64,000 bases of DNA from Acanthamoeba castellanii str. Neff (Eukaryota; Discosea; Longamoebia; Acanthamoebidae), in assembly GCF_000313135.1 (NCBI RefSeq), contig NW_004457584.1:460768-524767 (forward strand), given 5' to 3'. The notes below the pieces were generated by a model. That model was not told the origin of the DNA and ran no database searches. It saw only the letters and a list, made by a program, of their open reading frames with translations. Positions 1,010-63,609 of the stretch are shown piece by piece. Positions within the stretch are counted from its first letter, which is position 1. The number at the start of each line of letters is the position of its first letter. The translations under genes were made by a program, and so were the position numbers.

Positions 1010-3479
1010 TTAGTCGAAGAGGTTCTCGCGGTCGGCGTCGAGTCCGTCGTCGGCTCCTCCTTCGGCGGTGGCGGTGTCCTCGGAGGAGACCCAGGAGAGG
1101 AAGTGGGTGGGGCGGAAGGCCTCGTTGTAGAACTCGCGCGGGTTGGCGAGGACGAGCGAGTACTTCATGTTGGGGTTGTGCTTGACGCCGGAGAAGTTGT
1201 AGTTCCACATGCCGTGCTCGGGGACCATGTAGAAGCCGAGGAAGCGGTCGGAGAGGAGCATGGGCACCTTCTCGTAGAAGAGCGGGGAGTAGCCGGAGAA
1301 GTTGTGGGTGTGGTTGTCGCGGTTCTGCTGGCCCCAGGTGTAGCCGGCGGGGGTGAGCTTGTAGGCGGTGAGGGAGCAGGAGCCGGGGGTGAAGGAGACG
1401 GTGATGACGATGGCCTTCTCGGCGTCCCAGGCCTTGTTGTCGGTCATGATGCCGGCGTGGGTGATGACGTCGCCGGGCGGGAGCTGCGGGAGCTCGTTGG
1501 GCTGGGTGTGGATCCAGCCGAGGGGCTCCATGTCGGCGAGGTACTCGTGCTCGGGGAGCTGGTGGGGCAGGTTGACCTCCTGGTGCGTGCCCCACTGCGG
1601 CGGCATGACGATGCAGCGGATCTCCTTGACCATCGGGTTGTCCGGCGGGCTGATGCCGTACATGAAGCCGGCCACCTGCGTGCGGAGGTCGGAGATGGTG
1701 ATGAACTTCTTGAGCACGTTCTTGGGCAGCACGTAGGTGAAGCCCGTCTCCTTGACGTCGTCCGACGAGACGTAGATGTGGTTGGTACGGAGGTGGAGGT
1801 TGGTCGCCGAGATGGCCCGCACGCGCCAGTCGGTCTTGGAGGTGAACATCTTCTGGCCGTAGGGCGAGGTCGTGGTGACGGTGATCTCGTCGCCGTGCAC
1901 GTTGGTGGTCTTGGTCGTCACCGCCGTCAGCTGGCTGGCCTCCTTGGTCTGCTTCTCGATCTCGGCGATCTGCTGGCGCTGCTCCGACGGCGGCGAGATC
2001 TCCATGCCGAGGATGATGTCGCGGATCTCCGACTGCGTGAGCGAGGCCACGTTGACGTTGTTCTTCTTGCCGTAGTCGGAGAGGATGAGGTCCTTGAGCG
2101 ACACCTCGACCTTGATCCACTGCTCGTCGTTGAGCGAGGGCCAGATGTGGTGCGGCTGCGTGACCACGGTCTTGTCGGGCTTGAGGATGACGCGCGTCTT
2201 CTCGTGGTTGACGTGCAGCGAACGCAGGATGAGCACCAGTCGCGAGAAGGCCGTGTAGGACGAGATCGTCTTGAGCCAGTCGTCGTAGATGTTGAAGAGC
2301 ACCATCTGCGGCTCGGTGGCCTTGAGGATGAGGTCGCCGAACTTCTCGATCTTGAGGCACGCCTGGAAGGGCAGCTGGAGCTCGGAGCCCTTGATGACGA
2401 TGTTGGGGAAGTCGAGCAGGTGCACCTCGAGCGGGTCGAGCATGCCCTTGCGCGTGACGATGATCTGCTTGGGCTGCTCCTCGACGGGCAGCGACCGGAT
2501 GAGCGCCGCCACCTCCTCGGCCGTCTTCCACTTGGCCAGCTGGCCGAGACGCTTCTGGCCGGCCCACACCGACGTGTGGATGATCTTGAGGAAGAGCTGG
2601 CCGGTGCGCGGGTTGAAGATGAAGATGCCGCCGTTGATGGGCTTGGTCGTCAAGTTACCCTCGAACGTCTTGTGGATGGTGACGCGGTAGACGTTGGTGT
2701 CGTCGACGAACCAGATGATCTGGTTGGAGAAGAGCTCGCCGTAGTTCTGCGACGACAGGTAGGGCTCGGTGGGCTCGGACGAGTAGAGCTGGAGGCCCTT
2801 GCGGATGCGCTCGCGGAGCACGTAGAGGGCCGGGTTCGACTTCATGATCTTGGCCATGGCCTGGCCGAGCAGGGGCTTGACGCCGGTGAACCAGTTGCCG
2901 AAGGCGCTGTAGAGGTTGTAGGCCAGGTCGAGCGCGATGAGCACGCCGGTGGGCGACGGGTAGATGCTCATGTTGTCGGTCGTGTAGTCGAGGAACTTGG
3001 CGCGCGCGTAGCGCTCGATGTCGTGCGAGTCGTAGTCGCCCCAGCGGAGCTGGACGTCGATCCAGTACTTGGTCGTGTGCGAGTCGAAGACGTCGTTGGT
3101 GTCGGTCAGGAGCGAGGGCTTCGACACGGGCCACTTGTACGCGGCGAAGAGGAGCACGTCGGCGCACGACGAGTTCATCTTGTAGGACTTGCGCGGGTGG
3201 ATCGTCTCCTTCTGCACCGTCTCGATCTCGAGCGCGTCGAGCTCCTGGTCGAACACCTGGCACAGATCCATCACGACGCTCTCGTGGACCTTCTGCCAGA
3301 GATGCGCGCGGAAGATCTGGATGAGCGAGATCTTGAGCGTGGGGATCTTGCCGTGCATGAAGATGCCCGTCAGGTCGAGCTGCACTTGGAAGCCGACGTA
3401 GACGTTGGCGCGGTTGATCGTCGGCGACCACCAGAGCGTGAACCGACGGTTCGGGATCTGGTTGAGACCCGAGCGCTGC

Positions 3480-3517
<38 letters not shown>

Positions 3518-3566
3518 GCCCGACGCCTTCTCCCAGAAGAGACCCTCCCACGTCGGGAAGTAGGTG

Positions 3567-3601
<35 letters not shown>

Positions 3602-6600
3602 GCCGCCCAGCGCCTGGATCATGTCCGTCCGGTAGTTGTTGAGGTTCCACAGCTTGCCGTCGTGGCGCTGGTGGGTCCACCAGAACGGGTTCTGCTTGAG
3701 GACCTGGTACTGCTTCCAGTCCGTGCGCAGACGCCAGCCCTTGTCGTAGGCCAGCGTGTGGCGGTCCTTCTGGAAGAGCGTGTTGATCCGCGGGATGCCG
3801 CGGTCCCACGAGTCCTCGAGGTCCTCGAGCGTGAGCCGCTTGTTCTGCGCGTTGGCCTCCTGCCGCTTGAGCGCGTACTCGGCCCACACGCGCTGCGAGT
3901 CGATGAACTCCTGCTCCCACGGCTGGATGTAGCGGTAGAGGTTCGGAATCAGCTGGTCCTCCTCGTGCGACATACCGCTCCGGAAGTGCGTCGTGCCGAC
4001 GTTGGTCTGGTTGGGTGAGAAAAAGAAAGAAGAAGAGAAAAAGAAGAGAAAAAGAAAGTGAGTGCTTCAACCAGCACGACACACAACCAAGGAGAGCTCG
4101 TACCTGCTTCGAGTAGCGGAGGTCGGACTGGGGGATGAGCACGTGGCCCATTGAGAGCATGCCGAGGCCGCCGAGCTCCTTCGGGGTGTAGAAGACGACG
4201 GGCGGGAAGCGGGAGGGCATCTTCGAGTTGAGGCCGATCTTGACGCGGGTCTGGATCTTGTTCTCGCACTTGACGAGGAGGTCGAGCAGCTCCTGGGTGT
4301 GGACGGTGGCCTCGCGGTAGTAGGTCATGAGGCCGATGAGCGACGTGTTCCACTTGTTGACGATCTTGGTGAAGGTGGTGGAGCCCGAGGCCATGAGCAC
4401 CATGCGGATGCGGTTCTCGAAGCGGCCGAGCGACTCCTCGTCGACGCGCAGGAAGGCCTGCGCCGTGCGCTCCTTGGTGTTCTCGTTCTGGAGGTTCCAC
4501 ACGCCGTCCTGCTGGGTGAACTCCTCGTTGAGCGAGCGGCACTTGGGCAGGATGCGGACTTCGAAGCCGCACATGGCGAACAGCAGGTTGGGGTTGTCCT
4601 TGCTGTAGACCGAGAGGAACGAGTTGTCCCACTCGATCGTGGTGAGCGACCGCAGGAGCCGGTTCTTGATGTCCCAGAAGACGGCGCGGCCGAGGTTGAC
4701 GTCGTGCTTCATGAGGCGCATGCGGGCGTCGCGGGGCCAGCACTTCTTGTTGTTGTAGCCGACGATGTTCTCGTTGTTGGGGTCCGGGTGCTCGGTGAGG
4801 TAGCGCTGGATGAGCTCCTTGGCCTCGTCGTGCGTGAAGCGGAAGCACATGTGGATCCGGTCGATGTAGCGCGAGTAGAGGCGGATCGGGTGGCGGGTCT
4901 CCTCCTCGACGGAGCGGAAGGTGAGGAAGTCGTTGGGCATCTGCGGCGGGCCGGCGATCTCCGACGCGCGGGTGAGGCCGAGCACGAGGAGGTCGAGCAC
5001 GAGGCCGTAGTACTGGAAGATGAACGACGCGAACTGGAGGCCGCGGATGAGGCCGTACGAGTTGGTGTGGTTCATGTCCTTGTAGTTCATGACCACGTTG
5101 TTCTTGGCCGTCATGTAGTCGGCGATGTTGTGGTCGAGGATGAGGCGCAGGAGCCGGTTGAGCAGCGTGAGATCGATCTTCTCGTAGACCTTCTCGAGCT
5201 TGGTCTCCATCAGCACGACGCACTCGCCCTCGCTCGTGTCCCACACGTTGGTGAGGTTGTTGATGCCCTGGCACCACTTGTAGGTGAGGAGCGGCGGCGG
5301 CTCGGTGTCGGCGGGCTTGATCCAGTTGGGGAAGAGGTGACGCTTGTCGGCCTCATACCACACGTACTGGTCGAGGTAGGCGTCGGTGATCTTCTCGAGC
5401 GGCTCGATGTCGTAGACCGGGATCAGGTAGCTGTAGAGGTCCATGAACTCGATGCCCAGCTCCTTGAAGGCCCGCTGCGTGAGGAGGTGGCGCTTGATCC
5501 GCGACAGGGCCTCGTGCGGGTTGTCGTAGGCCTGCTCGACGAGGCCGAGCTCCTCGCGCTGCGACTGGTTGAGCCGGCTCTTGACGCTGTAGGCCTCCTT
5601 GAGGTGCTCGAGCGACAGGATGAGCAGCTTCGTGTCGTGCTTGTAGTTGAGCGGCGGGAACGGGATCGGCGAGAACTTGCGGCTCTCGAGCCAGTGCACC
5701 GTCGTGGTGTAGATCGCGACGGCCTCCTCGGCGGTGATGTACGGCCCGTCCTTGAGGTAGTTGTGCTGCCGCTCCTGCTCGGCCTTGAGCCACAGCCGCG
5801 TGAGCCGACCGAGGTTCTTCTTGCACACGGTCTTGTCGACGGTGGCGCCCCGGCGGATGCGCTCGCGGTTGTAGTGCGCGACGTTGGTCCACCAGTCGGC
5901 CTTGGACTTGACGTAGCGCAGGATCATGTTCTCGATCGGCGCCGGCAGGCCGGGCACCTTCCACGGGATGTTGGCCTTCCAGCAGCGCCACGCCTCGCTG
6001 AGGTGCTGGAGGATGGTGCGCGACTTGTTGGCCCGGATGCCCTCGGGCATCATGTCGAGGATGTCGTGCATGACCGCGGCCCTGAGCTCGAGATCGAAGT
6101 GGCTCTCCACGCGCTGCTTGGTGACGGTCTTGGCGATGCCCTTGGAGTGGCGGCCCTCGAACTGCCTGGCGAGCAGGTTGCCCAGCCACCGCTCGAGCAG
6201 CGGCACGACGCCGCGGAGGAAGAAGAGCCACACGCGCCAGGCCGGCGCCCAGACGCCGCAGCCGGGACCCTTGCCGACGGGACCGGTGTTGAAGCGGTAG
6301 TAGATGAGGTGCTTGAGGTCCTTGCACATGCGGATCTGGCGCATGAGGCGGTACTTGTATCGGTACATGCCGGTGAGCTGGCCAACGTGCGCGAAGATGT
6401 ACTGGAGGCCGTCGGCGAGCTGGAAGGCGTCGACGTGGCCGAGGCGGAAGTGGACGTTGGCGTCGACGACGAGCTTCGTGAGCCGGAGGATCTCGCGACA
6501 CAGATGGAAGGCGTTACCGAAACGCGACTTCTTGCGCTCCTTGGTGGTGAGCGTCTTGACGGGCTTGAGGTTGAAGTTGTAGTCGAGGTGGAGGTAGTTG

Positions 6601-8126
6601 AGGTTCTTGCGGTGGATGAGGAGGTTGAGCATGTTGTAGCCCTGCCGACACACCTGCAGACCGGCCTCCACCCAATCGAGCTCCGTCGACTGGAAGAACT
6701 TGGTCGCCGCCAGCGAGCGGAAGAGGTAGCGCTTGTTGAGCGCCTTCGGCGGCCGGTGCTTGAGCTGGTTGAGCACGTAGCACTTGAGCAGCTTCTGGTA
6801 GCTCACGCGGACCTTGACCGGGTGGTTCTGCGGGCAGTGCTCCATGTACCACGACTTGACGAGCGGCACGTCCTGCGCGCGCCTCGTGCGGCCCGAGCGG
6901 AGGTTGAACGGGCGCGGCGCCCAGTAGAGCGCGATGCCGCTGGCCGTGTTGTCGGTGAAGAGGTCGGTGTCCTTGAGCAGCGGCTCGACGCCCTCCGGCA
7001 GCGCGAACGGGGCCTCCTCGTCGTCGTCGAACTCGTCGTCGTCGCCGTCGCCGCCGCGGCCCTTCTCGCCTCGCCACGACGCGATGGGGTTGATGAGCGG
7101 GTCGAAGTAGAACGCCGGCAGATCGGGGTCGTCGGTCTTGATGTAGACGGAGAGCGGGTGGTGGTAGGGGGTGATGTGCACGCTCCTCGGGCGGTTGTTG
7201 TAGAGGTAGGGGAACGCGACCTTGTACTCCGTGCGCAGCTGGTGGCGGATGATGAGTTTGTTGATGTCGTTGAACTCGTTCCAGTCCTCGTCGGCCTCGT
7301 CGATGTCGCGGTACATGGGCTCGAATTTGGGGCCGCCGGGGATGGCCATGTTGAGCGCCTTGGCCGTGAAGAAGGACTTGGTGTCGAAGAGGTAGAAGTA
7401 GTTCTTGTCGTTGAGGTCGCTGAGCAGCTGGCTGGCGAGACGGTAGAGATTGGCCATGATGGGGAGCGGCAGACGCCAGCTCTTGTAGCTCGGCCCGTTG
7501 ATGTACTTGGTGTCGGCGAGCGGCCGGTTGTCGTACAGCCAATCTTTGACTGGGGCGTCCTCGATCTCCTCGAATTCCATCTGGATCGGGTCGAGCGGCT
7601 CGACGTCCATGATGTTGTCGCCGTAGTCGAGCGGCGGCTCCTCGTCGTCGAACGGCGGGAATCGCATGCGCTTGAAATGCCGACGATCTCGCTTCTCGCG
7701 CCTCATCATGATCCACATCGAACCCCACTGCGCGATGTAGATGGGCTCGACGACCAGCGGGATCTGGTTGACGAACGTGATGGCGCCCGTGATGTGGTAG
7801 AGCACCGGCACGTCGCGCACCTGCTCCCACGGCATCGGCATGTTCTCGAGCAGCTTGAGGATCGCATGCGGCACGTACTTGAGCGCTCCCAGGTACACGC
7901 GCTTGTCGTGCCTGAACTTCTTGCTCGACATGTCGCCGTGATCCTTGATGATCTTGCGGATGTGCTCGGGGGGCATGTCCTCCTTCTGCGGCTCGACGTG
8001 CCCGAATTTCCTCTTCTCTCCATATCGCTTTGAATTGAGCTGATGCCACTTGCGCGACTTCTCCTCCAGCGCCTTGTCGGCGGCAGAGGGTGCGTCGTGC
8101 ATGTGCACGGTCTCAGTGTCCGCCAT
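1010..8126 (-). CDS. PRPF8: Pre-mRNA-processing-splicing factor 8 (U5 snRNP PRP8)
   Basis: PRP8 is the scaffold at the catalytic centre of the spliceosome. It contacts U5, U6 and both splice sites and controls the helicase BRR2. Two exons, 8126-4104 and 4006-1010, are split by a 97-bp GTACGA...CCAG intron in phase 0, giving 2339 residues (human 2335). The start is the first in-frame ATG ([11 protein letters not shown]). The expected order is visible. The N-terminal region carries [20 protein letters not shown]. The highly conserved core reads [20 protein letters not shown], and the intron joins SDLRYSKQ to [19 protein letters not shown]. The RNase H-like part follows, then a C-terminal Jab1/MPN-like domain containing [14 protein letters not shown]. 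Residues of about 420-445 form an acidic Asp/Glu/Gly insertion. Long open frames on the opposite strand are shadows of its GC-rich codons. Confidence 0.98.
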
Positions 8127-8533
8127 TTCTGATGGAGATGCCGAGAGATGCGGCCTCGATCGAAAGTAGAGAAGAAAAAGAACAAAGGAAATCGAATCTC
8201 TGCCGCTCGGCTTGTACCGCGCCCGCCAGACAGGCCTCTTCTGTCCCAAAATTTTTCTCGTCTCGAAAGTCCCCTCCACGAAATTTCCGGGGCCGCACAC
8301 GCACGGAAAAGTTGTTTTCTTTTACGAACCAACAAGCAAGACAGCACACCACGACACGCACACGACGGCGACGGCGACGAGCATTAGCTTCACACGCGGG
8401 ATGATGCGGCTACGGCAAGAGAAGAGGTTGTGAGAAGCGTGGACGAAAAGATGTGGGAAGAGAGTGTGCGTGCGTGCGACAAGCGTGGGCATTCATTCTG
8501 AGGAAACGCAAAGAAAGCGGCAGCGCCCTGGGC
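8127..8533. other. Intergenic, PRP8 promoter and LAMTOR5 3' flank
   Basis: PRP8 is transcribed leftward from this side, and LAMTOR5 ends at 8534. I see no further gene and no clear TATA box. Short reading frames here run through upstream or antisense sequence and match nothing I recognise. Confidence 0.5.
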
Positions 8534-19308: not shown

Positions 19309-20791
19309 TTACATTACGCCGTGGTGGGAGGTGTCGAGGGACAACCCCGGATGGAGCCACATGTGGGTCGCAACAGGGCTTGAGCCAGCGGAGTCGAGCC
19401 GCCTGTATTGGCGGAAAAGGAGGTCGGGGGAGGTGCTTGCGCCGAAGTTGCGGTAGTCCTCGCCCGGGAGGCCGATGTCGCCATGGGCCAAGCCCGTCAG
19501 GAATGAGCGGAATCTCTCGATGTCGTCGACGCCCGAAGACCACGACGATGCGGAAGTTGTTGATGTTGGGGTGGTGGTCGAAGGCGCCACGGAGGTGGGC
19601 GTGGTCAAGGTGGGAGAGGGGCAGAAGTCGGAGAGGTCGGAGAGCTGGAAGTAGTCCACCTCGAGCGGACTGATGTAGGCCGGTGGGTCCATACGAGTCA
19701 GCTGGTCCGCATGCTGACCGACGCCGACGTCGGCCAGTGCAGAAGATGAGGAATGCGCGGAATGTTCGCAGGCTGACTGGTGGTTAGCGAAGCCGAGCGG
19801 GTGGACAAACGAAGCGTTCGTCTGGGCCGCGTAGTGGAGCAGAGGAGAGCTTCCCTCGCTCTTGACCGGCCCCGTCGGCTGGATCTGTGGGCGCCAATTG
19901 ACGTCGACGAGCCGAGGAGGCGATGACCCACAGGTGGTCCGTGGAGACGACGTGGAACCGAGGCTGCCGAGGTAGTAGCTCGACGTGGGCGACGTAGGCG
20001 GGGTCGACGAGTTAGTGGTGCAAGTGGTCGCCGGCCACGGCGAAGAAGTTGATAACTGGTCCCGACGCGGCTCCGCGGGCTTCTTCTCGGGCGCCTCCTC
20101 CTTGTCACGGCTCCTGCGATGGGCCACCGTCGCCAGTATGGTGGAGCTCAGCGAGTGACCCACCGATGATGTCGGCGCGGTCGAGCTGGTCGGATAGGTG
20201 GCCGACCGGGGCCGACTCGTCGCTGTGGCGGTGGATCTTGATGAGGGTGGCGGGTTGGCTGTGGTTGTGGTAGGCGACCGTCGGCGAAGGCACTTGTAGC
20301 AGTGCTTGGATTGACCGCGGGCGCCCAGGCGCGAGCTGCGTAGGCCGGGGAAGGCGCGGTGTACGAGCTTACCGAACATCGACGCCATGAGGGGCGCCTT
20401 GTGGTCGTTCTCGCACATGCGGAGGTAGTCCGCAAAGATCTCCTCCTTGGTCATCGACGTTTTCCCAGCCGCCTCGAAGCTGTCCCTCAGCCTGTATATG
20501 TGTGTGTGTGTGTGGTGTGTGTGTTGGCGTAACAACGTTGTTATTATGGGCACGAAACATAAGTGTTCCCAACAACGTTTGGATGCCAAACAGAACTGAC
20601 TGAACGCACCAAGCGATGATGTGGCCGCTCTGGTGGAACTCGAGTTGGTGGGGTTGTGCGGTAGCCGTTGACGTGGTGGTCGATGTAGTGGTAGTGTGGG
20701 TCGAGCCCGGTGAGGCGTCCAGCTGGGCCCAGGCCGGCAAGCCTGCCCGGGCCATGTAGCATTCCTCATCTTGGTCCAGGTTCCTTTTCAT
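19309..20791 (-). CDS. RFX-family transcription factor
   Basis: Two exons (20791-20610 and 20491-19309) give 454 residues. Residues of about 58-134 are an RFX winged-helix DNA-binding domain: IAWLRDSFEAAGKTSMTKEE, then DYLRMC, MASMFGKLVHRAFPGLRSSR and LGARGQSKHCYKC. The RLGxRGQSK element that contacts X-box DNA is intact, and the intron falls inside the first helix (AW|LRD). Downstream is a long Ser/Thr/Pro-rich region with an acidic, aromatic-containing tail, consistent with an activation region. I do not see the dimerisation domain of vertebrate RFX1-3. In animals RFX factors drive ciliary genes; an amoeba without cilia must use it for something else, such as the cell cycle as in yeast. The target genes are unknown. 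Confidence 0.9.
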
Positions 20792-21565: not shown

Positions 21566-24500
21566 CTAGGCTTGTGCCGAGGGATCAAAGAAGGCGTAGG
21601 CGTCGTCGTCGTCCTCCTCCTCCTGGTCGTCGTCGTTGCCTTGGCGCATTCGGCGGCCCTCCCAGAGCTTGGCGTAGGTCGACCCAGGGCAGTACATCTT
21701 GAGGTTGAGGCTGCGCTGCTGCGCCCTGATGAAGTCGTCCAGGTTCGTGTAGGCCGCATCGGCGTACACCAGTTCGCCCTTGTCGTTCCTTGTTTTGTGG
21801 GGGGGGGGAGTAAGCAGAACCAAACAGTGACGGGCGTGAGTGCACTGCAGACGCAATGCCAGCACAGCGAGCAAAAAAAAAAAAATGAAAATAGCACATG
21901 AGAACATAATAAAATAAAAATAGGAAACATAACACACTAAAAATAAATTTGAACTTGCATAAGAAAAGACGGTTGTGCGGTTGCAGTGCACCCGCAGTGG
22001 TGAAAAGGAAAGGGAACATGCATTTAAAGTAACGCACAGTAACCGGAGTCGTGAACAGTTTTGTGAACATGATCCAATTAAACTAAGTTCCTGTATGTGC
22101 CATATATGCAGGTTTTCCCTTTCCTTTTCACGATGATCACAACTGCAAAACGAAACGAAACATAACATAACAAAACGAAATGAAATAAAACGCAAAGAAG
22201 AACTGTAACAGTTACGCGTGGTACCTGTTGATGCGGATGTGCTTGGGGCCGGTCTGGGGCGAGTAAAGGAAGGAGATGGTGAACGATCCAGGCTGGCTCG
22301 CGCTAGATCACGGTGGAAATAAGGTCAGCGCTCAAGACGACACGAACCGCGCAGCTGATCTAGGCGGTTGGCGCCAATCATTCTTCGCCAACCGATGATG
22401 GGCATCTTCTTTTCTCGAGCAGCGCCCCAAAAAGAGGGCGGGTCCAAGGTGGTCGCAGGGAAAGATGTGATTTGGGCATGTGCCTAGGAGCACCCAGGTG
22501 GTAGATAGAGAAGGAAATACAAGAAAAAGAGAAAAGAAAATGAATGGTTAAAAACAATTGATAACAAGTGGTACCTGAAGCGGATGAGGAAGGAGCCCTT
22601 GTTGGCCGCCCGCAGGCGCGACTCGGCCTCGATGCGCGATATGTCGCCGAAGAACCACCTGTCCAGGTGGTGTTTTGATAAACCAGATCATCAGTTGGCC
22701 AGACATCGCACGTGTGCGGGCAAACAGCGGTGATAAGGGAGTGGGGTGGTCGTGTTACCCCTTGGAGGAGACGTTGGTGATGTTGGCCAGGAAGGCCGTG
22801 GCCTGCGGGTCGAGCGGTCCGAACCACTGGAGGGCGTTGCCCCAGGCCTCCAGCGTCACCGACTCATCACCAGCCGCGTCGCCTGGCCGCAACGAATGAT
22901 ATTAATATATTATGATATTATTATATTATTATAATTTGAATTATCATAAATAAATAAAGAAAAGATAATAATATAAATAAAAAAGCAAATAAAAGTAGAA
23001 ATTGTATTCGTACAGAGGAGAAGCTTGAGGGATTGGATGACGGGCTCGTCGTCCTTGACCTTACTGGCCAGCACACCAAAGTACTTGCGGAAGCCCTCCA
23101 GCCACTCGCGCCAACCAACCACGTCCTGCAACCACACATGCCAGTCAGTGACATAGTCAGTGTCACATATATGACACACACGCGCTATCTCGCAATTGCA
23201 AGTGTGTCGACATGCGTGTCTGATGGTAGATAGAACGTTACGTATTCGACAAAGTGCTGGATCCAGAAGGCCTGGCCGATGGTGTCCTTGACGGCCGATT
23301 GGATGATGACCATGTCCAAGGTGTTCTCCTTCAGGATCTCTCCAAACGAAGGTCTGTCGCCAACATGTTTGTATTGTGTGTGTCGTGTGTGTGTGTGTGT
23401 GTGTTGTGTGTGGTGTGTGTCGTGCGTGTGGTGTGTGTGGTGTGTGGTACCTGAGGGCCGGGTCGGTCTGCCAGCAGGAAACGATGAGCTTCTTCAACAG
23501 AGGAGGACAGTCGTCGGGCATCTCTGGCCGCTCCTCGTCCAACGCCACCGCTTCGATCAGTTCGTCCAACGAATCAAAGAGGCCCTTGTAGGGTTCCTCC
23601 GTAGTGTGCAACTCCCACAGCACCACGCCTGTTGTGGAATTTGACGCACGCACGGGTTGTTTAGGCTGGGATGGTTCAAAGAGCGAGCGAGCGAGCGAGC
23701 GAGAAAGCGGGGCACACAACGTACCGAAGGCGTAGACGTCGACCTTTTCGTCGAAGTCCTTCTGCAGGAGGAGCTCGGGCGCCATCTATTTTTATATATA
23801 TAGATTTATGAATATAATAGTTAATTAACAAAGAACGAAAACGAAAGGAGAAATAGAACGAAAGCGGCGGGTGAACGTACGTAGAAGGGCGACCCCACCA
23901 TCTCGCCGTCGCCGGCGGCCTCGGGGTTGTAGACCTTCGACAGACCGAAATCTGAAATGAAATTGTTTTGGGCGTAGTGCTGGCGGTGAGGTCACAGGCC
24001 CGACGGTCACGAGTGAGGGAGGGGGAAACACGGACCGGCAACTTTGACGTTCCAATTCTGGTCCACGAGGAGATTGCCCAGCTTCAGATCGAGATGGAGG
24101 AACGGCGGCTTGAGCCGATGCAGCCAATTCATGCCCAACGCGCAGTCCTTTCCGATCTGGCCACATAATAACATATCAAAAATAAATAGTTAATAACTGA
24201 TTTCAATATTATTAATAACAACAATTCTTTGCTATTTTACCATCATAATGTAAATAAATAATTATGGTAAGGAGGGTATATTACCTTCATGCGCTGCTTG
24301 AAGGGGAGCTGCGTTTTGCTCTTGTGGATGAGGTCCTCCACGGAACCGCGCGGCATGAGCTCGGTCACGATCATCAGCTGATCGCCCTCCACGCAGGCGC
24401 CCATGAACAGCAGAATGTTGGGATGCCTGTCGACATCATCGTCATCAGTTCTCCACTGTGTGGTGTGTGGTGTGTGGTGTGTGGTGTGTGCGTGTGTGCG

Positions 24501-33138: not shown

Positions 33139-35985
33139 TCAACCGAGGACACCGAGGGAGGCGATGGCCAGCAGGGCGATCAGGGCGGCCAGCGCCAGAC
33201 CGATAACCACTGCGCTGCTGCTGCTGCTGCGCTCCTCCCTCCTGGCCACGGTGCCGCCGCCAGGCTCGGGTTCGGCGTGCGCCAGCAGTCTCGGCGAAAG
33301 AGCGCCCTTGATGTCCTCCTCCGCTTCCTCCTCGTCGTCCTCTGTCTCCTCCGTCGGCTTCTTCGCCTTCGCCTTCGTCTTCGTTTCCTGTGTCGTCTTC
33401 GCTTTCTTGGCCGCCGCTCCCCTGGTCGGCGTGGTGGTCGACGACAGCTCGGCCTCCAGGTCATCTGCGGCAGCCAGACCACCCCCGCGATCGATTGGGC
33501 GGTTAGTCCACAAAAGAAGAGAGAGGGGAGCCCTTTTAGTGAAAGTTGTACCTGAGGCGAAGCGTTCGGGTGTGACAAAGTCCTGCTCGCTCGGCTGCAG
33601 GTCAAGCAGCGCCTTGGCCCGCTCGCAGCAGTCCTCCTGCCGCGCGCGCGCGCGTAAGCGCACAGCACGACACGACACACACGCTGGTAGGTGGGGGTGG
33701 AGCGCACCCGCACGGTCTCGAAGGGCATGAGGTAGTCGGCGACGAGGAGGGGCTTGACGAACGGGAAGAAGACGCGCTGGGGAAGACCCCACCGCTGCTC
33801 GAACTTGGGGCCCTGCTTGCTCTCCCCGAACGGATTGAACAGCTCATCTGGCGTGTCTCGTACGTCAGACACACACACACAACACACACACACACACACC
33901 GCACGCACTTCTTCCTCACGACCGCACGCACCGCACACGCGCATACCAGACGAGGCTTTCTTCTTGCGCTCCTTGAGGTCGGACTCGCGTCGTTCGAGCT
34001 CCTCGCAGAGGAAATCGAATCGCGCGGCCAGCGATTTGCCGATGTCGGCCTTCAGCGCGGCGATCGCCGCCCCGTAGCTGTTCTTGGGGTGGCAGTAGGC
34101 ACGCCCGAGGATCGAACCTTGAGGAAGGGGGGGGGGTGGAACGCGAATGCGGTGAATGATCGGTTCATGCGTGCGCGGTGTGTGCGACTGAGTGCGTGTG
34201 CGTGTGCGTGTGCGATTGTGTGCGTTGCCGTGCGGTGCGTTGCGTGTGTGCGGTGGTGTCGCACCGCTGAAGGTAAAGGTGCCTAGGGCGTCCTTGGAGG
34301 GACTTGCTCCGGTGAGTGAGGAGGGGAGGCCCTCGGTGAAGATGTCAACGGCGTGCCTGCGGTGCACGAAGGCCGATCAAGTTCGTTGTTAGCGCGCGTG
34401 TGCGGTGGTGCGTGTGCGGTGGTGCGTGCGCGTATCGTACACAGCGTAGGCAGGGAGGTTGCCTGGCTTCGCCTTCTTCTTGCCCTTCGCATCGCCCTCT
34501 GCCAAACCAGCTTTAAGTCAGTCATCCTCCCTCGGAGATGAACGCGCCGTGATCACCGTGAGGGAAAGAGAGAAGAAGAACGAAGAACGTCGACGTACTT
34601 CCGCCAGACTTTTTGTTGCCGCAGATGGGGGCATCTTCGTCCACTACAGTTCGGTTGACAAGCACCACGCCCTTGCGCAGCGCCTCTGCCTCTCGCTCGA
34701 GCGCAGCCTGCATGTACACGATTCGCATCAGTCGCGCGATTGACCAACGCACACACGACACACGACACACAACGCAGCACGGACCTCAATTTGCTCGCGC
34801 GGGCTCTGTCCAGGGGAGAGCGTGATGGCCAGGGAGACATCGACCGAACACGTGAAGCATTGGAACGAGGATGCGATGCTCTGGAACACCAAATCTACGG
34901 GCTTGGTGTCGCCCTTCTTGTTCGTTATGTCGATGCTCTTGGCCGTGTACCTGACACGACACGCACACGACACGACACGACACGACCAACGACACGACAC
35001 GACCAACGACACGACACGACCAACGACACGACACGACACGACACGACCAACGACACGACACGATACGACAGACAACACAACACAATGACGCACATTCCGT
35101 TTGGACCTCGCTGATGACACACGCGGTGGTCGTGAGGAGTGCGCTAGGTACGTACTTCTTGGTGTCAGACGCGATCTGGAGGAGAAGGAGCTCCGACGGC
35201 CCGCCCTGCTTGCCCCGATACCCGGCCGCCTCCCTGGTTCCATGCGCGTGTGTCGTGTTGTGTGTTGTGTGTTGTGTGTCGTGTCGTGTCGTGTCGTGTC
35301 GTGTCGTGTCGTGTCGTGTCGTGTCGTGTCGTGCCACACGATGCGCGATGAGGATTTGATGCAGATGAAGACGAGTGGTGACGGAGAGACGGCACCTGAT
35401 GCTGTGGAGCAGAAGATGCATTTTGGGCAGCAGGGCGGCCGACGCATCGGCGCCGGCGAAGAGGTAGGCGCCCACGATCGCCAGCCCGCCCGGCAGCATC
35501 CTATTCACCTGCAACCCAACCGTTTGTACGCGTGCGTGCGTGCGTGCGTGTGCGGTGGTGCGTGTGCGTGTGCGTGTGCGTGTGCGTGTGCGTGTGCGTG
35601 TGCGGCGATGAGTGTGCGGTGGTGCGTGTGTGTACCTGGTGTGCGTGCTCGCTCATCCACTCAGCGTCGAGCACATCAACGGGCGAGAGCTTCTTCTTCT
35701 TGCCTGTCGTTGCCCACGAGATTGATTAAAATAATCATCAACTAAATATTAATATTATTAATAAAAATGAATTAACGAGGAGGATTGAAGGGGAGCGTTA
35801 CCAGCGGTGGGTTCCACTTCAGGGAGCGGGGTGGGAATGAGCCCAATTACGAAGCAATCTTCGGGATCTGCTCGCAATTGCCCCACAAGAAGGCCAACCT
35901 GCTCGCGCGCCGCACCAGCAGCAAAGAGCCGCTGTTGCGTGTGGGCCTCGACCCCCGTCTCATCCACCACCACCGTTCGTCCCAT
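33139..35985 (-). CDS. ODR4: ODR4 homologue, tail-anchored membrane protein
   Basis: Twelve exons (35985-35802, 35703-35636, 35508-35396, 35233-35156, 34950-34785, 34707-34599, 34498-34441, 34356-34265, 34117-33947, 33847-33708, 33636-33552 and 33464-33139) give 529 residues. The N-terminus MGRTVVVDETG, then DAEWMSEHAHQVNRMLPGG, matches human ODR4 (MGRTYIVEE...EEWATEHACQVSRMLPGG). Further matches are REAEALRKGVVLVNRTVVDE and RVFFPFVKPLLVADY. The C-terminal 25 residues form a single transmembrane anchor (AVVIGLALAALIALLAIASL) after a Lys/Glu-rich linker. ODR-4 was found in C. elegans as a factor for ciliary delivery of odorant receptors, and in mammals it pairs with the UFM1 protease UFSP2 at the ER (established). 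In a non-ciliate amoeba the ER/ufmylation role is more likely (inference). No UFSP2 gene is in the window. Confidence 0.9.
35277..35332. repeat. (GTCGT)n pentamer repeat in ODR4 intron
   Basis: About eleven copies of a GTCGT pentamer lie within ODR4 intron 3 (35234-35395). A complementary ACGAC-rich stretch lies in the next intron (34951-35155), at about 34965-35060. Confidence 0.85.
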
Positions 35986-50764: not shown

Positions 50765-53700
50765 CTACTGCGGGTAGGCCGAGAGGTAGAAGGGCGCGGA
50801 GGCGGTGGGCAGAATGACGGGGGACTTGGCGCCGAGGATCTGCTTGTCGCCCTTGCTCGACGTGACGGCCAGCGCCTGCGCACCCTGGCTGGTGAGGCCG
50901 AACGTGATCTGCTTGTCATCGAACGCAATGTCGATCTGGCTGCCCAGGTAGTGGAACTGGTTGTTGTTGTTGTTGTTGTTGTTGTTAGGGCATCATTAAG
51001 GAGGTCGGCGAACATTAAGGTGGTGCTGGTGTGGCTTAAGGAGGCGGCGCACCTGGCGGTACTTGAGGTAGGTGGTGTGCTCGGGGAGGACGGGCTTGAA
51101 CACGACGCGGTCGTTGAGGATGCGTACGCCGCCGAAGCCGGCCCACAGGCCCTGCAGGAAACCGCCCGCGCCGGTGATGAAGTGGGGGCAGCCTCCGTTG
51201 ACCGTCTCCTGCCAGGCGTTGAACGGCAAGTTCAAGTTGAGCCTGCGCGTATGTCGTGCGAGTCGTGTTGTGCGTGTGTCGTGTCGTGTGTCGCGCGTGT
51301 CGTGTTGTGTGCCACGATGAGAAAGGAATCATGATCGAGATAGGCGAAGGGGTCGCCGTACTGGTAGCTCTGGTTGAAGTACTTGGCGGCGAGCTGGTAC
51401 TCGCCGACCTCGAGCCAGCCGATGGCGAACATGCCCCAGGACATGGCCGGGCCGTTGATGTCGGTCACCTCCTCGTAGTACTCCAGGTCGTTCCTTCGCA
51501 CCTGCTCCGGCAGCTGGTCGAGCGCCGGATAGCCCATCAAGATCGTGTCGGCCTGCATTCCACACATTACTCACAAGTTATTTAAATTTTCTTACATAAA
51601 AATACCAATATTATTTTATTATAATTCTTTTTTTAAAAAAAAAGAAAGATAAATAAGTCTATTTTATAAAATTGAAGGGAAGTAAGTACCTGCTTGACGA
51701 CCTGGCCGTACTCGTAGCCCACGTACTCGGGGTGGAAGTTGCCGGTGGCGTTGAAGGGCACGTAGATGTTGCTCGAGATGTTGAGCCAGACCGGGTCCAC
51801 CTTAAGGCCCAATATCTGTTCATTTACACGTTTTTTAGAATATATAGATAGACATATATTCGATATATAGTGTGGGTACAAGACAATAGTAAAAGAATGC
51901 AAGGAATGTACCTGCATGGCCTCGGCGGCGAACTCGATGCTGATGCGGGCGATGGTGTTGGTGTAGGCGTTGTCGTTGATGCCCTTGTTGTCGGGTCCCG
52001 TGGCGTACTCGTCCGGGCCGAGCACATGATTGATGGAATATTTCTGTGTGGCCACCATTTGAGCGGCAGGGGTTAGGGTCAACCCTCTACGGACCGCACA
52101 CGCACACGCACAACGCACACGCGGATGGAGGGCAATGGGCGAACCTGGGTGGTGGAGTTCCACTCGACGTGCGAGATCCAGAAGGCGGCGATGCCCACGG
52201 CGAGGTTGATGCCCTCCTCCTTCAGCCACTGCTTGTCCCGCGTGAGGCGCCAGTACTGCTGGACCGCCAGCGCTGCACACGCGGCACACACGACAATACA
52301 GGTCAGTCCACAATGAAACGCTCGCACCACAAACGTCACTCCGAGCGTGTGCTTGGCGTACCGATGTCGCCCATGAGGTGGTGCTCGAACAGACCCGGCG
52401 GCCAGGGGCACACCTCGGAGCCGGTGTAGCCGCTCTCCCACGGGAACTTGAGGCCCTGCAAAAAAATAGAAAAATTAATATAATGTGTATATTTGTTAAA
52501 ATGAATAAATAAATAGAAATAAATAAATAAGGTGGTAAAGGTGCACCACCTTGAATCCGTTGAGGGCGGCGTTGGCCGAGGCTTCGGGGATGCGGTCGGA
52601 ACGGTACTGGAGGAGGTTGCGGGCCACCTCGGGGTAGAAGAGGGCCATCGTGGGGTACATCCACGTCTCGCCGTCCCAGAACGAGTGGCCGCTGTAGCCC
52701 GTGGTGGCCAACGACCCGGGCGACACACTGACACACACCGCCACCGCGAAGAATTAACTACGTTTGCAGTGTGTGCGGTGGTGCGTGTGCGGTGGTACGG
52801 TGGTGCGCGTGGGTGTGCGTGTGCGGTCTACCTGTAGGACTTGACGCGGAAAGCGGAGCCGAAGCGGCTGGAGTTGGTCTCGTAGTCGCCCGCGCGGATG
52901 GAGCTGAGGAGGTAGTAGATCGACGAGTTGACGGCCTGGCCGAGCTCGAATCGAGCGCCCACCTCAATACCGGCCTCCCAAATCTTTTCCCATTCCTGTT
53001 CACGACACGACACACACGACACGACACGACACGACACACGCGACAACACGGGTTGGTCCAACTGCAACTGAGTGAAGATCGAGTGAAGCGGGGCGTTACC
53101 TCGATATGGTGCTTCCGGAGGGAGCCCTGCATGAACTGCGCGTTCTGCAAATCGGTGAGCGCGGCGTCGATCGGGTACTCGCTGTCGTGGTTGGTCCTGT
53201 GACACATTTTGCCACGTCAGCAAGAAAAAGAAAAAGAATCTAAAAGAAAAATAAATATAATTCAAGTAAAAATAAATAAAGAATGTAAATAAATCAAAAT
53301 AGTCTAACCTGATGGCGGTGATGAAGTAGAAGGTGGTGGAGCTGCCGGTGGCGTTGACGGTGATGCTGTCGGGCACGTTGTTGGTGGCGACGGCGACGAA
53401 GGTCGGCTGCTGCTTGGGCGTCTCGAGCAGGCGCGTGGGGCCGGCGATGACCGCGAGGCCCGGCGGCGCGCCGTACGGGCTCAGGTCGAGGTCGGTCGTG
53501 GCCGTGCCGTTGTTGTTAGCCAGCGTGAGCGTGATCGACTCGTTGGTGGGGCTCACCGTCGTGCGCACCTGGATCTCGTGCACGAGCAGCGACGGATAGA
53601 AACGGTGCGCATACCTGGCGGGGAGGAGAAGTGAGTCGTGCGCGGCGTGTGCGGTGTGCGGTGTGCGTCGTGCGATGCGGTGCGTGCGAGTGTGTGTCGC

Positions 53701-58611: not shown

Positions 58612-61600
58612 ATGGACTCGCGTTCAGTCCCGTTGGCGCTACTTCTGCTCTTCCTCGTTCTCTGCGTGGTCGGAGTTCGTCCCGCCGGTACACCATCCCC
58701 CTCCCTCTTTCTCTTTCTCTTTCGCTCTTCTTCTCTTCGTTCTTTTGGAACTAAGATCAACCTCCCCCAACAGGTTCGTGGTCGTTGACCCTCGTACATT
58801 CGCAGGACAGCTATGGCGCAGTGGTGGCGGTCGACGGCGCCAACAACCCGTGCGCCCCCGTGGGCCTCTCCTACGCCGGGGGCGAAGGCCTGGGCGGGTG
58901 CCTCGGCGGCAACGCCCGACGCGAGGCAGCCATCGCGCAACTCCGGAGCAACGCAAGCACGAACCTGTTGGTGGTGGACATCGGCAACGTCTTCTCAGGT
59001 AATGCCGGGGTCTCTTCTTCGGGGCCATTCTGCATTTAAATGTGTTGTGTGAGCTCATTACTTACTTTTTTCGTGTCCGCAGGCGGGCAGTACTTCTTGT
59101 TCTCGTACGACACGGTGCTCAAATATACGCTAAAAATTGGCTACGACATCATCAAGCTCGACCTCTATGACATGCTCGTCGGAGCGGACAGGGTACTCAG
59201 AAAGTGATGAGTCGTGCTCTCATCCCATACACTGACCACATCTCTTTACTGCGATACAGTTCACGAAGTTCGTGCCGCAGTTCACGGGAAACAACACCCG
59301 GATCGTGAGCTCCAACCTGGTTGGACTGCAGGACGATCCGGTGACGGCCGCACTCGACATCCAAACCCAAACAATCATCTCCTACGACGATGGCGAAAAG
59401 GTGTGTTCGCGCCATCGTTGCGAATGTTGAACATTGGTCATCGTCTAACGATCAACCTCCAATGGCAGGTGGGGTTCGCAGGCACCATGCCAGTGAACTT
59501 GCAAGTACTGGCCAACGACCTTGGTACTATGGTATGCTCGCGTCGGTCGCTTGACTCCGCGCCAACGAAATCACATAATACTTCTTCTTTTTTGTCATTC
59601 AGGACTCGACGGACGAGGTCGACGCCTTGCAGGTTGCCGTCGCCATCTTGCAGAACCAGGGAGGTTCGTTCGCCGTCCACCACTCACTGTACAACAACAG
59701 CCATCACGCCACGCCGTGGTCGCCTGACATCAACATACTGCACAGTAAACAAGGTGATTGTGGCGGTGAGCAACATCAAGTTCGTCGACCCGCTTCTTGA
59801 GCGGGTCAGCGGTATCGACGTCGTGTTGGTTCAGCGACAGTACTACGCCAACAACAACGGTAACTACTACAACCACACCTTCATTTAGAGCTAACTCTAG
59901 CGCTAAAGATCGCCAACCAACCCGGCTTGCGCAGAGACCGGCACCGCGGTGGGACCCTATCCCGTGGTAAAGCAGATGAGGTGGAACCAGGTGGTGTGCA
60001 TCGCCGGCGCAGGCGTGTGGGGCGCGCACCTGGGCCAGCTCGATCTCGAGTTCGACCAGTACGGCGTGATCCAGTCGTGCAGCGGTAACGCCATCCCTCT
60101 CTCCGACGCCATTACCCCGAACGCCACGCTCCAGGTACTTGTTGCTTTGTCGTTGGAATGCAATGCCAGAGCCACCTCCTGACCCAGGCGTGAGTGCCAC
60201 CCACGTGCCACACAGAATGAAGTCATTGCCGACTACAACATGTCCTTGGCCGGCGTGAAGCGCGTCATCGGCCATGCCTCTGTCAATCTCGATCTCAACG
60301 TACGTGCATGTTGTCCGCTCCACGCAACACACCCTTTGAGGCCATAAAGTGTCAACTCAGCCGCTAATGGGTACGCGCAGCACAAATGCTGGTTTGGCGA
60401 GTGCGGAATCGGAAGCTGGGCTGCCGACCAGTTTCTTGCGGCTGGCAAGACCGACATGGCCTTCATCAACGGAGGCGCCTTGGCGTACATTCTTCTCATT
60501 CCTTCAGCCCCAGACTCTTTTGCCATAACGTTGTGTGTCGCGCGTGTTGTGTCGTAGGAGGGCGATCGCGGAGGGCAATATCACGGTGGAGGACTACACG
60601 CGGGCTTTCCCCTACCCCGCCGACGTGATCACGACCTTCGGCCTGCTCGGGAAGCACCTCCTCCTCGCACTGGAACACTCGGTCTCCCTGGCCAACGAGA
60701 CCACCTATGACATCAGCCAGGGTGTCGGTCGCTTCCTTCAGGTACTCCCACACACCGCACGCAGCAACGCACGCACGCACGCACGCGCGCACACGCGCGC
60801 GCGCGCACACACACACTCACACACACACGCACACGCGCGCACACACGCACACACACGCACTCACGAATTCTATGCGATCAGATATCGGGCGTCAAGTTCA
60901 CCTGGAACCCGAGGGAGGAGGTGGGCATGCGCATCGTCAACGCCTGGGTGCGAGTGGCGGCATCGCCCAAAGTTCCTACCGACCCGGCTCTCGCGGCGAA
61001 GCGGCAGGACGAACTGTACCGCACGACCAAGCAGTGGGAGCTGGTCGAGCCCGAGCGCGTCTACACCGCCACCACCATCTCGTTCCTGTCCTCGGGCCTC
61101 GACGGCTACTCCTCGCTCAGCGACAACGCGCTCGATCTCCAGACCCCCGGCCTCACCGCCGACTCGGTACCCAATCTCCACGCCTTCTCGTCACAAGCTT
61201 CACATCTGAATGCGCCGTGTGTCGTGTCGTGTGTCGTGTGCGCTGTTTACAGGTGATCTTGGGCGGGTTGAGCAGCGGCTCGGTCACGCTCACCGAAACG
61301 GGGCGCATCGTGGCCTCTGCGGCGACGCGGCGCACGTGTATTCCACCCGGGGGCACGCTCTCTTGCAACGACAACGGCGCGTGCCTCGCTGGTGTATGCC
61401 AATGCACCGCGCCCGACACCTCAGGTGCGTGCGTGTGCGTGTGCGCGTGTGTGCATGTCCACCTGGTGCTGACGTGTGTCCACTTCCAGGGGACTTTTGT
61501 ACGGTGCAGACCTCGTCGGGTTCCGATTCCACGTTGGCGATCGTGCTGGGCGTCATCCTGCCGATCACGCTCCTGCTGGTGGTGCTGGCCATACTCTTCG

Positions 61601-61689
61601 CCGTGCTCCTGCTCGGGTACATGCGGTACAAGCGGCCCAAGGTGATCCTCAAGGTACTCAACATTCCTCACATTCTCTTGGCTGTGCAC

Positions 61690-61734
<45 letters not shown>

Positions 61735-62567
61735 CACACCACCGCGCATTCTCAATGATGACCACATGAACAACAGGAGCCCAACTACCAGCTGTTGGTT
61801 TGGCGCAGGGATTCGATGGAGAGCAATGAGGGCATGAAGATGCTCCCCATGCGGCGACTCAACCTCAAGGTCCAGAGCGTGCTCATCGAGGTACTTCCCT
61901 TCCCCCAGCTGCTGCCTTTTCAATCAACAATCTTGCTGCTCGCTCGCTCGCTCACTCACTCCTGTTCAATCAATCAGTTCCTGATGGACCAGCACGTCGC
62001 TCAGGCCATCGGCAGCGTCGCCCACGCCAACCCGTCCAGCATTGACGAAGTGGCAGCAGCCATGGTACGACGTACATGCATTCCACACGTTCTGTGGGTA
62101 GGATGGCGGTTGATGATGCGCGTGTGCAGGTGTTGGTGCATCAGTCGGCGGACAAGGGCACGGAGCTGATCAGGCTTCTGCTGAAGAACGAATTGCTGTC
62201 GCAGGACGACGAGCAGGTCCTCTTCCGAGAGGAGACGCCCGGCGTGAAGGCCTTCTCCGTGTTCAGCCGCATGGTGGGCCTGCCTTTCCTCTGGCACACC
62301 TTCGCCTACCCCATCGCCGAACTCGAGATTGCCAACAACGTATCATCACCCTCCTGCCTGCCCGAAATCGCACACATGCATGTAACACACACGCACATGG
62401 CACCACCGCACACGCACACCGCACACGCACACCGCACACCGCACACGCACACACAGGTGGACGCCAAGTCGCCTCGATCGAACTTGACCGACAGCGACCC
62501 CGCCCCGTTTGGCAGCATCTTCTCCCTCGCAACTGCGGTTGAGGTTTGCATTCGCCACCATGCCCGA

Positions 62568-62606
<39 letters not shown>

Positions 62607-63609
62607 TGACCAACTGTCACTCATCTTGTTCCACATCACAACACAGATCAATCCCAAGATGATGGAGGAGGGCCAGGACAACTTTGTGGGACGCCTCCAG
62701 CTGGAGCTCCTGGTGCAGAAGCTGTTCACTCGAATTCTGGATTCGCTGCATCAATTCCCGTTGTACATGCGACAGCTGTGCCGCATGTTGTACGAGGACA
62801 TGCGCTACGACCACCCCGACTACATTCATCGCGTCCTTGGCAACCTCATCTTCCTCCGATTCATCGTACGACACACACGACACACGACTCTGAAACAACA
62901 CGACACGCGCGACACGCACGCCTTCGGTAATGACATCAACATGTGCGCAGTGTCCAGCCCTGTTGGTGCCGCAGACGTACGGTCTGGTCAAGGAACAGAC
63001 CCACCCGCAGACGCACCGCACACTCATCCTCATCACCAAGGTGCTCCAGAACCTGGCCAGCAAGAACGAATTCAGCGACAAGGAGGTGTTCATGGAAGCC
63101 ATGAACGGATTCATCAAGCGCAACGTCTGCAAGGTGCGTGTGCGGTGTTGCGTGTGAGCTGAGTGTGCGGTGGAACATGGAACGAACTGAACGATCGACT
63201 CGGTGCTACACGTCTAGTTGGAAGCGTTCTTCGACCAGCTGTGCGCGCCTACGGACGATCCCACCTTCGGAGATCCGCCGACGTCGATCGTGCCGCGCCA
63301 GTTCAAGCGGAAGGCGCTCACTGTGATGTACCAGTTCGTGCAAGCCCACGCCAAGGAGATCCACGACGAGCTGCAGGAATTCCCGGCCTATGCCGTGCAG
63401 GTGCCTGATCCGACCGCACACACCGCACGCACCGCACGCAAGTGTACCTTGATGCTGCGGGAACGCACACCACTCACTTTTGAGAGACAACACAGGAATC
63501 GCTGGAGCGTCTGAAGTACCTCACGCAAGACCGAGAGAACGAAAACGATGGCAGCACGAGCGACAGCGAAGAGAGCGAAGACGAAATGCCCAACACCCAA
63601 AAGCTCTGA
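58612..63609 (+). CDS. Transmembrane 5'-nucleotidase-like ectodomain fused to RasGAP
   Basis: Twenty-two exons join in frame to 1059 residues: 58612-58687, 58774-58998, 59083-59192, 59260-59400, 59469-59531, 59603-59663, 59746-59859, 59935-60134, 60216-60299, 60381-60484, 60558-60741, 60882-61166, 61253-61424, 61490-61653, 61777-61890, 61978-62064, 62130-62339, 62457-62543, 62647-62865, 62951-63133, 63218-63400 and 63496-63609. Order: signal peptide (1-25); calcineurin-like phosphoesterase fold (about 28-300); 5'-nucleotidase C-terminal domain (about 320-520: DMAFINGGALARAIAEGNIT, GRFLQISGVKF); EGF-like cysteines (about 578-610); one transmembrane helix (622-650); RasGAP (about 700-970) with LFREETPGVKAFSVF (finger Arg761), FLRFICPALL (Arg898) and LILITKVLQNLASKNEFS; acidic tail. 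The metal-ligand positions of the phosphoesterase are replaced, so the ectodomain probably binds rather than cleaves. Predicted type I membrane receptor-like negative regulator of Ras. Confidence 0.92.
61689..61735. repeat. (CGCA)n tetramer in RasGAP-fusion intron
   Basis: About eleven CGCA units in the intron 61654-61776, between the exon for the transmembrane helix and the next cytoplasmic exon. Confidence 0.9.
62570..62606. repeat. (ATT)n trinucleotide run in RasGAP-fusion intron
   Basis: About twelve ATT triplets in the intron 62544-62646, a rare A/T-only microsatellite in this GC-rich window. Confidence 0.9.

Follow-up and report, generated by a model that had tools for sequence, protein, structure and literature searches.

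To our knowledge, the receptors that switch off a Ras-family GTPase directly are mainly plexins, and p120GAP, neurofibromin and SynGAP, which carry a RasGAP domain with an arginine finger and an FLR motif, are not single-pass receptors. Here we describe a gene on the forward strand of a 64,000-nucleotide stretch of the Acanthamoeba castellanii str. Neff genome (contig NW_004457584.1, positions 460,768 to 524,767; hereafter the window, in whose own numbering coordinates are given). Its predicted protein carries a 5′-nucleotidase-like ectodomain, one membrane helix and a canonical RasGAP domain with the same two arginine motifs. Plexins, as described in extracts of PMC3787391, resemble it, on its predicted topology, in being single-pass receptors with a GTPase-activating protein (GAP) of RasGAP fold, arginine finger included, behind a juxtamembrane segment; this GAP is switched by ligand-induced dimerization outside the cell. 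In the same extracts the plexin GAP is Rap-specific and uses a non-canonical mechanism, while the window protein has a canonical PF00616 domain. The plexin cytoplasmic part also contains an inserted RBD, and its ectodomain is of the sema type. The window protein matched no plexin cytoplasmic GAP/RBD family and no sema domain in Pfam at E values up to 1, and we ruled out membership of the plexin family. Thus, receptor-to-GAP wiring is of a known kind because plexins have it, and the joining of a receptor to a RasGAP fold by one helix is found again here, as far as sequence goes. The first-pass annotation of this DNA knew of no described receptor of this kind. It overlooked the plexins, in which a GAP on the cytoplasmic side targets Rap directly (PMC3787391, in extract), and also the further transmembrane RasGAPs of this genome and of other sequences.

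The ectodomain, by sequence homology, has the two-lobed fold of CD73, UshA and the snake venom 5′-nucleotidase, and it shares a CxFxEC cysteine pair with the venom enzyme. Enzymes of this type are anchored by glycosylphosphatidylinositol, secreted or periplasmic, whereas the window protein is predicted to be transmembrane, mostly lacks the catalytic and metal residues and is fused to a signaling domain. The lobes of the living enzymes rotate by 96 degrees in UshA (PMC8475336, in extract) and by up to 114 degrees in CD73 (PMC8677862, in extract). A 5′-nucleotidase C-terminal domain outside a protist receptor has a precedent in choanoflagellate glutamate-family G protein-coupled receptors, which carry 5_nucleotid_C domains extracellularly; unlike the window protein, they have seven helices, and section 9 of that source reports no RasGAP or kinase on them (PMC12716839).

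Splicing the gene by hand, we recovered the 22 exons and the single 1059-codon frame of the first-pass annotation, followed by a stop codon. All introns (21/21) are GT..AG, and no in-frame stop lies between the ectodomain and RasGAP exons. A spliced-alignment script run with the window protein against the DNA returned the identical 22 exons; this result is not independent, as the hand-made protein was its input. The domain search suggested for the 1059-residue protein placed RasGAP (94.3 bits, cut-off 28.3, model positions 1-207 of 207) and 5_nucleotid_C (84.9 bits, cut-off 23.6) well above their Pfam cut-offs and the EGF-like module below. Searching the sequences of the PDB, we matched residues 26-480 to the T. 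thermophilus 5′-nucleotidase 2z1a (E 3.5e-28) and residues 824-1037 to p120GAP 1wer (E 1e-19). Hydropathy analysis gave one strong helix besides a hydrophobic N-terminus. Pfam, the PDB matches and hydropathy agree with a single gene in which a 5′-nucleotidase-like ectodomain is joined through one membrane helix to a RasGAP with its catalytic arginines. The claimed phosphoesterase fold held up in part: homology to 5′-nucleotidases speaks for it, but PF00149 is not among the Pfam families that the protein matched.

The arginine finger, Arg761, and the FLR arginine, Arg898, were found where they had been placed, in LFREET and FLRFICPA, and both paralogues described below keep LFRE and FLRFICP. 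In pairwise segments, Arg761 pairs with the IFR of SynGAP at 15.5 bits; its pairing with the p120GAP LFR is confined to a segment scoring about 1 bit. N-glycosylation-type sites number seven in the ectodomain and one in the cytoplasmic part.

We searched the 38.4-Mb assembly of 250 contigs for relatives. A profilin frame of this assembly matches profilin II of A. castellanii (PDB 1f2k) at 125 of 125 residues, as expected of A. castellanii or a close relative. Performing tblastn and spliced alignment, we found two tandem paralogues (C124a and C124b) on contig C124, both with the domain order of the window gene: ectodomain, EGF-like module, helix, juxtamembrane segment and RasGAP. Identity to the window protein is 52% over 979 aligned residues for C124a and 65% over 1020 for C124b. 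The C124a model begins at residue 27, has 18 exons and is least sure in its ectodomain; that of C124b starts inside the signal region. Exons 19-21 are 219, 183 and 183 nucleotides long in all three genes, and C124b shares many more exon lengths with the window gene. By the Nei-Gojobori method, the ratio of nonsynonymous (dN) to synonymous (dS) divergence is below 1 in all three segments of all three gene pairs. Between the window gene and C124b, dN/dS values were 0.378/0.95 in the ectodomain (56% identity), 0.194/0.47 in the helix and juxtamembrane part (74%) and 0.14/0.61 in the RasGAP (79%). The tandem pair itself (L026, L027) shows a lower dS in its RasGAP half (0.40) than in its ectodomain half (0.96), which may reflect gene conversion of the GAP part or the poorer ectodomain model.

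Querying the genome with the ectodomain, we obtained 43 exon matches at no fewer than 12 loci, namely the window gene, its two paralogues and nine others. At these nine, a protein kinase of the W-I-D-F-ELE-G-LG-GGFGEVY kind comes shortly after the ectodomain and EGF module. A tblastn search with two family kinases found kinase exons at 9/9 of them and at 0/3 RasGAP control loci; two of the nine targets are the source loci of the queries, which match each other. Seven open reading frames, from all of these loci but C94 and C189, were put to Pfam: the kinase was above cut-off in four (C190, C64, C226, C234), below it in one (C80) and absent in two (C207, C221). The kinase domains were traced through their first exons. 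Seven of the nine loci show, in their open frames, a hydrophobic helix behind the EGF module and ahead of the kinase; so does the spliced model of C189, from which the first ~120 residues are missing. In C94 the reading frame changes past the EGF module, and the model there leaves the helix out. Because these sister loci have a kinase in place of the RasGAP, the receptor idea is strengthened, and since other members of the ectodomain family carry protein kinases, we suggest the same kind of sensor with different outputs. Outputs exchanged behind one ectodomain are, as far as the predicted proteins go, the pattern expected of receptors. A unique one-off fusion was ruled out by the three RasGAP-type copies and the nine kinase relatives.

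The nine kinase-type loci (L044, L045, L046, L047, L048, L050, L051, L009 and L017) form a receptor-kinase family of their own. They are mostly intron-poor, C189 excepted, whereas the RasGAP members are intron-rich.

We then compared the 12 family ectodomains (3 RasGAP-type, 9 kinase-type) with seven enzyme-type proteins that have an intact metallophosphatase motif and both Pfam domains. The metal-binding and catalytic roles of the aligned columns are those known from UshA and CD73. Six columns are invariant in the seven enzyme-type sequences and replaced in the family: the His at window residue 39 and the Asp at 97 occur in 0/11 members, the Asn at 128, the Asp at 132 and the His at 234 in 0/12, and the His at 129 in 3/12 (C94, C226, C221), the window gene not among them. 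The GHxH stretch is also lost, in a gappy part of the alignment, and the first metal-ligand aspartate, D37, is retained almost throughout the family, window gene included. On the substrate side, for which three of the seven comparators were used, the arginine column at 362 of the C-terminal lobe is lost in 12/12. A second arginine, the counterpart of CD73 R395, is retained in 4/12 (C207, C80, C64, C234; not the window gene), the NGG asparagine (388) in 11/12, and the two clamp columns are aromatic in 10/12 and 12/12. PF00149 has 24 listed matches in this genome, all of them outside the 12 family loci. Since the family ectodomains no longer have the catalytic dyad or the majority of the metal ligands, that of the window gene is predicted to be a catalytically dead pseudo-enzyme.

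The family has invariants of its own. G270, W280, Q282, W371, N463 and five stalk cysteines are found in 12/12 members and 0/7 enzyme-type sequences; the sixth stalk cysteine, C610, is invariant in the six sequences aligned. The window protein has all six cysteines together with Trp280, Gln282 and Trp371. Because the enzyme-type sequences lack these invariants, the ectodomain appears maintained rather than decaying, and the sequences indicate a fold kept for something other than hydrolysis. In the tree, the split between the 12 family ectodomains and three enzyme-type sequences stands at 100/100, and the RasGAP-type ectodomains, three in number, cluster together at 96/96; the tree favors neither output as the older. 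Scanning 14 loci for an intact 5′-nucleotidase motif, we found a catalytic-type RESNLG only in L018/L025, where the neighborhood reads N; these loci thus gave no complete catalytic 5′-nucleotidase as a control.

Transmembrane RasGAPs are not confined to this family. We examined 16 further RasGAP loci (L001-L008, L029-L034, L056 and L057; L035 repeats C48), often with 1.5 kb flanks. Four of them (C85, C101, C203, C246) combine a helix and a RasGAP that was above cut-off in the genome scan with a juxtamembrane motif of the type KLSQPDYEQLIYGD; the window gene counterpart of the motif is LKEPNYQLLVWRRD. On cut pieces, Pfam placed RasGAP above cut-off in one L008 piece, and below it in the other L008 piece and in L006. 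No helix precedes the GAP at C196 (L057). Helix candidates upstream of L004, L005/L035 and L029-L034 were dropped by eye as repeat-coded, intronic, too distant or unclear. These four transmembrane RasGAPs, L002 (907-2508), L006, L008 and L056, form a second group, with a QPDY juxtamembrane motif in common and a different ectodomain. It is possibly a beta-sandwich or immunoglobulin (Ig)-like one; one ectodomain piece of the four gave a sub-threshold Ig match.

Outside this genome, 4/15 of the protein-search hits scanned (P0001-P0015) resemble the window protein in having a single hydrophobic helix ahead of a PF00616 domain, and differ from it in having no 5′-nucleotidase domain. P0006, from Lithocolla globosa, has EGF repeats and aligns in BLASTP with the window protein across helix, juxtamembrane part and RasGAP at 29%; P0009 has TIG and PSI, P0001 has TIG with PSI below cut-off, and P0007 has no recognized ectodomain family. 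Our open-access literature search found no paper on these four. Eight other RasGAP hits (P0005, P0008, P0010-P0015) showed no helix in the hydropathy scan. A search with the ectodomain alignment, limited to scoring the 7998 candidates that had the most words in common with it, gave 21 proteins. All of them have PF02872, 15 have PF00149 as well, and none has a kinase or RasGAP domain. No protein-search hit was named as Acanthamoeba.

We read the window protein as a type I single-pass receptor of a modular family, with a dead 5′-nucleotidase ectodomain and a direct, ligand-switched Ras-off output, and give this reading a probability of about 0.68. The predicted sequences speak for a joined architecture kept in three paralogues, with catalytic residues mostly lost, GAP arginines intact and the cytoplasmic part exchanged. 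Beyond this, we infer that a ligand is bound, that switching works by a clamshell motion or a dimer, and that the GAP is active with Ras as its substrate. In such a receptor, the dead two-lobed fold on its EGF-like stalk would bind a ligand, which could be a small molecule, a nucleoside-like molecule or a protein. The nucleotide-like ligand of the first-pass annotation amounts to a guess, as metal ligands, dyad and substrate arginine are gone, although the NGG asparagine and aromatic clamp are mostly kept. The lobes would open and close clamshell-like, as in living 5′-nucleotidases, and by analogy with a Venus-flytrap domain a dead enzyme could reuse this motion as a switch. Lobe motion, or a dimer resulting from it, would be relayed by way of the helix to the juxtamembrane segments and change their pose or pairing. 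The membrane-held canonical RasGAP would then change its activity, and Ras would be switched off where the ligand is met.

Several observations weigh against the receptor reading. The EGF_integrin match at residues 575-610 scores 21.3 bits, under its 27-bit cut-off. Among the hits of the protein searches, no protein from another species has the complete architecture. C124b lacks the intron that separates exon 14 from exon 15, a would-be mark of the swap point, and exons 15-18 are fused into one piece in C124a, so that the introns are partly shared. Plexins, the closest known architecture, have another GAP family and target, so their switching may not transfer. The RasGAP could also be constitutively active and merely tethered: an always-on, membrane-held GAP with no ligand control, its ectodomain being used for adhesion, as an anchor or for sorting to sites such as phagocytic cups. 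An ectodomain that evolves faster than the RasGAP (56% vs 79% identity to C124b) would fit such a tether. We nevertheless hold it to be unlikely, as the same ectodomain is joined to kinases at all nine other loci, as expected of signal receivers, and its substrate-side asparagine and aromatic clamp are largely kept.

Two other explanations have much less in their favor. Twenty-one introns leave room for error and the junction exons are short, so that two adjacent genes might have been wrongly joined, or a decaying pseudogene taken for a gene. We find this very improbable because the same domain order recurs in both tandem paralogues and every segment has a dN/dS below 1. Moreover, exon 14 (61490-61653) holds the last part of the EGF module together with the helix and the first juxtamembrane residues. 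In the window gene, the intron that follows (phase 0) parts this EGF/helix cassette from the RasGAP exons; in C124b the exon is fused with the next. The open frame and the similar juxtamembrane motif of other transmembrane RasGAPs argue in the same direction. A working ecto-5′-nucleotidase fused by chance to a RasGAP would explain the clear homology over residues 26-480, a 5_nucleotid_C score far above cut-off and the retained D37. It is hardly credible with the metal-ligand and dyad columns replaced (39, 97, 128, 129, 132, 234) and a PF00149 match listed at none of the 12 loci.

Should the receptor reading hold, the window protein would connect an extracellular cue with a local drop in Ras activity in an amoeba. 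One ectodomain type on kinases or on a canonical RasGAP would show that receptor-GAPs exist beyond plexins and arose in several forms, and, beside the choanoflagellate receptors, it would be another use of the 5′-nucleotidase fold as a receptor ectodomain. More tentatively, and with rather more doubt than confidence, Acanthamoeba might possess a whole receptor superfamily in which the dead 5′-nucleotidase clamshell is the ligand sensor and the outputs, a direct Ras-off switch without intermediate among them, are interchangeable. If so, the amoeba could suppress Ras, and hence cups or pseudopods, exactly at contact with a nucleoside-like or prey-derived cue. Macropinocytosis and phagocytosis are under the control of the RasGAP NF1 in Dictyostelium (PMC4374526, in extract), which makes feeding structures a reasonable site to examine; extracts of PMC4374526 and PMC5154761 describe Ras patches in Dictyostelium feeding, on which feeding of this amoeba may depend likewise.

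As far as our open-access literature search goes, a dead 5′-nucleotidase ectodomain on a canonical RasGAP and in common with receptor kinases is new, and so are several transmembrane RasGAPs in one amoeba. That search found no paper on a transmembrane or receptor RasGAP, nor on RasGAP with amoebozoan receptor terms, and the main text of the A. castellanii genome paper (PMC4053784) mentions neither nucleotidase nor RasGAP. Automatic domain labels on these proteins may well stand in public databases.

Table 1. Predicted features of the window gene, in window coordinates.
Feature	Position	Strand	Remarks
Whole gene model	58612..63609	+	22 exons, 1059 codons and stop
Exon 1	58612..58687	+	hydrophobic N-terminus, judged by eye to be a signal peptide
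N-terminal metallophosphatase-like lobe, residues ~26-346	58774..60263	+	exons 2-8 and start of exon 9; most metal ligands lost
5′-nucleotidase C-terminal domain, residues 347-533	60264..61118	+	exons 9-12; PF02872, E 8.4e-24
Six-cysteine EGF-like module, residues 578-610	61337..61500	+	exons 13-14; Pfam match below cut-off; cysteines invariant in 6 sequences
Transmembrane helix, residues ~622-650, then basic RYKRPK	61534..61620	+	exon 14; hydropathy maximum
Juxtamembrane motif LKEPNYQLLVWRRDSM	61648..61818	+	interrupted by the phase-0 intron that separates exon 14 from exon 15; L002, L006, L008 and L056 have a similar motif
RasGAP domain, residues 741-937	62166..63061	+	exons 17-20; PF00616, E 1.2e-26
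Arg761 codon (arginine finger)	62226..62228	+	
Arg898 codon (FLR motif)	62857..62859	+	
Remainder of GAP module and acidic tail	63062..63606	+	exons 20-22

Elsewhere in the window, all on the reverse strand, we noted an open 1888-codon frame with four domains of PRP8, a spliceosome core protein (2658-8321), and a frame with an RFX DNA-binding domain (19312-20787, E 4.5e-17). Two ODR4-like frames at 33183-35652, one above and one just below cut-off, probably belong to a single gene. Pieces of a protein kinase gene (22913-23785) and of a glycosyl hydrolase 65 gene (51636-52757) were also seen.

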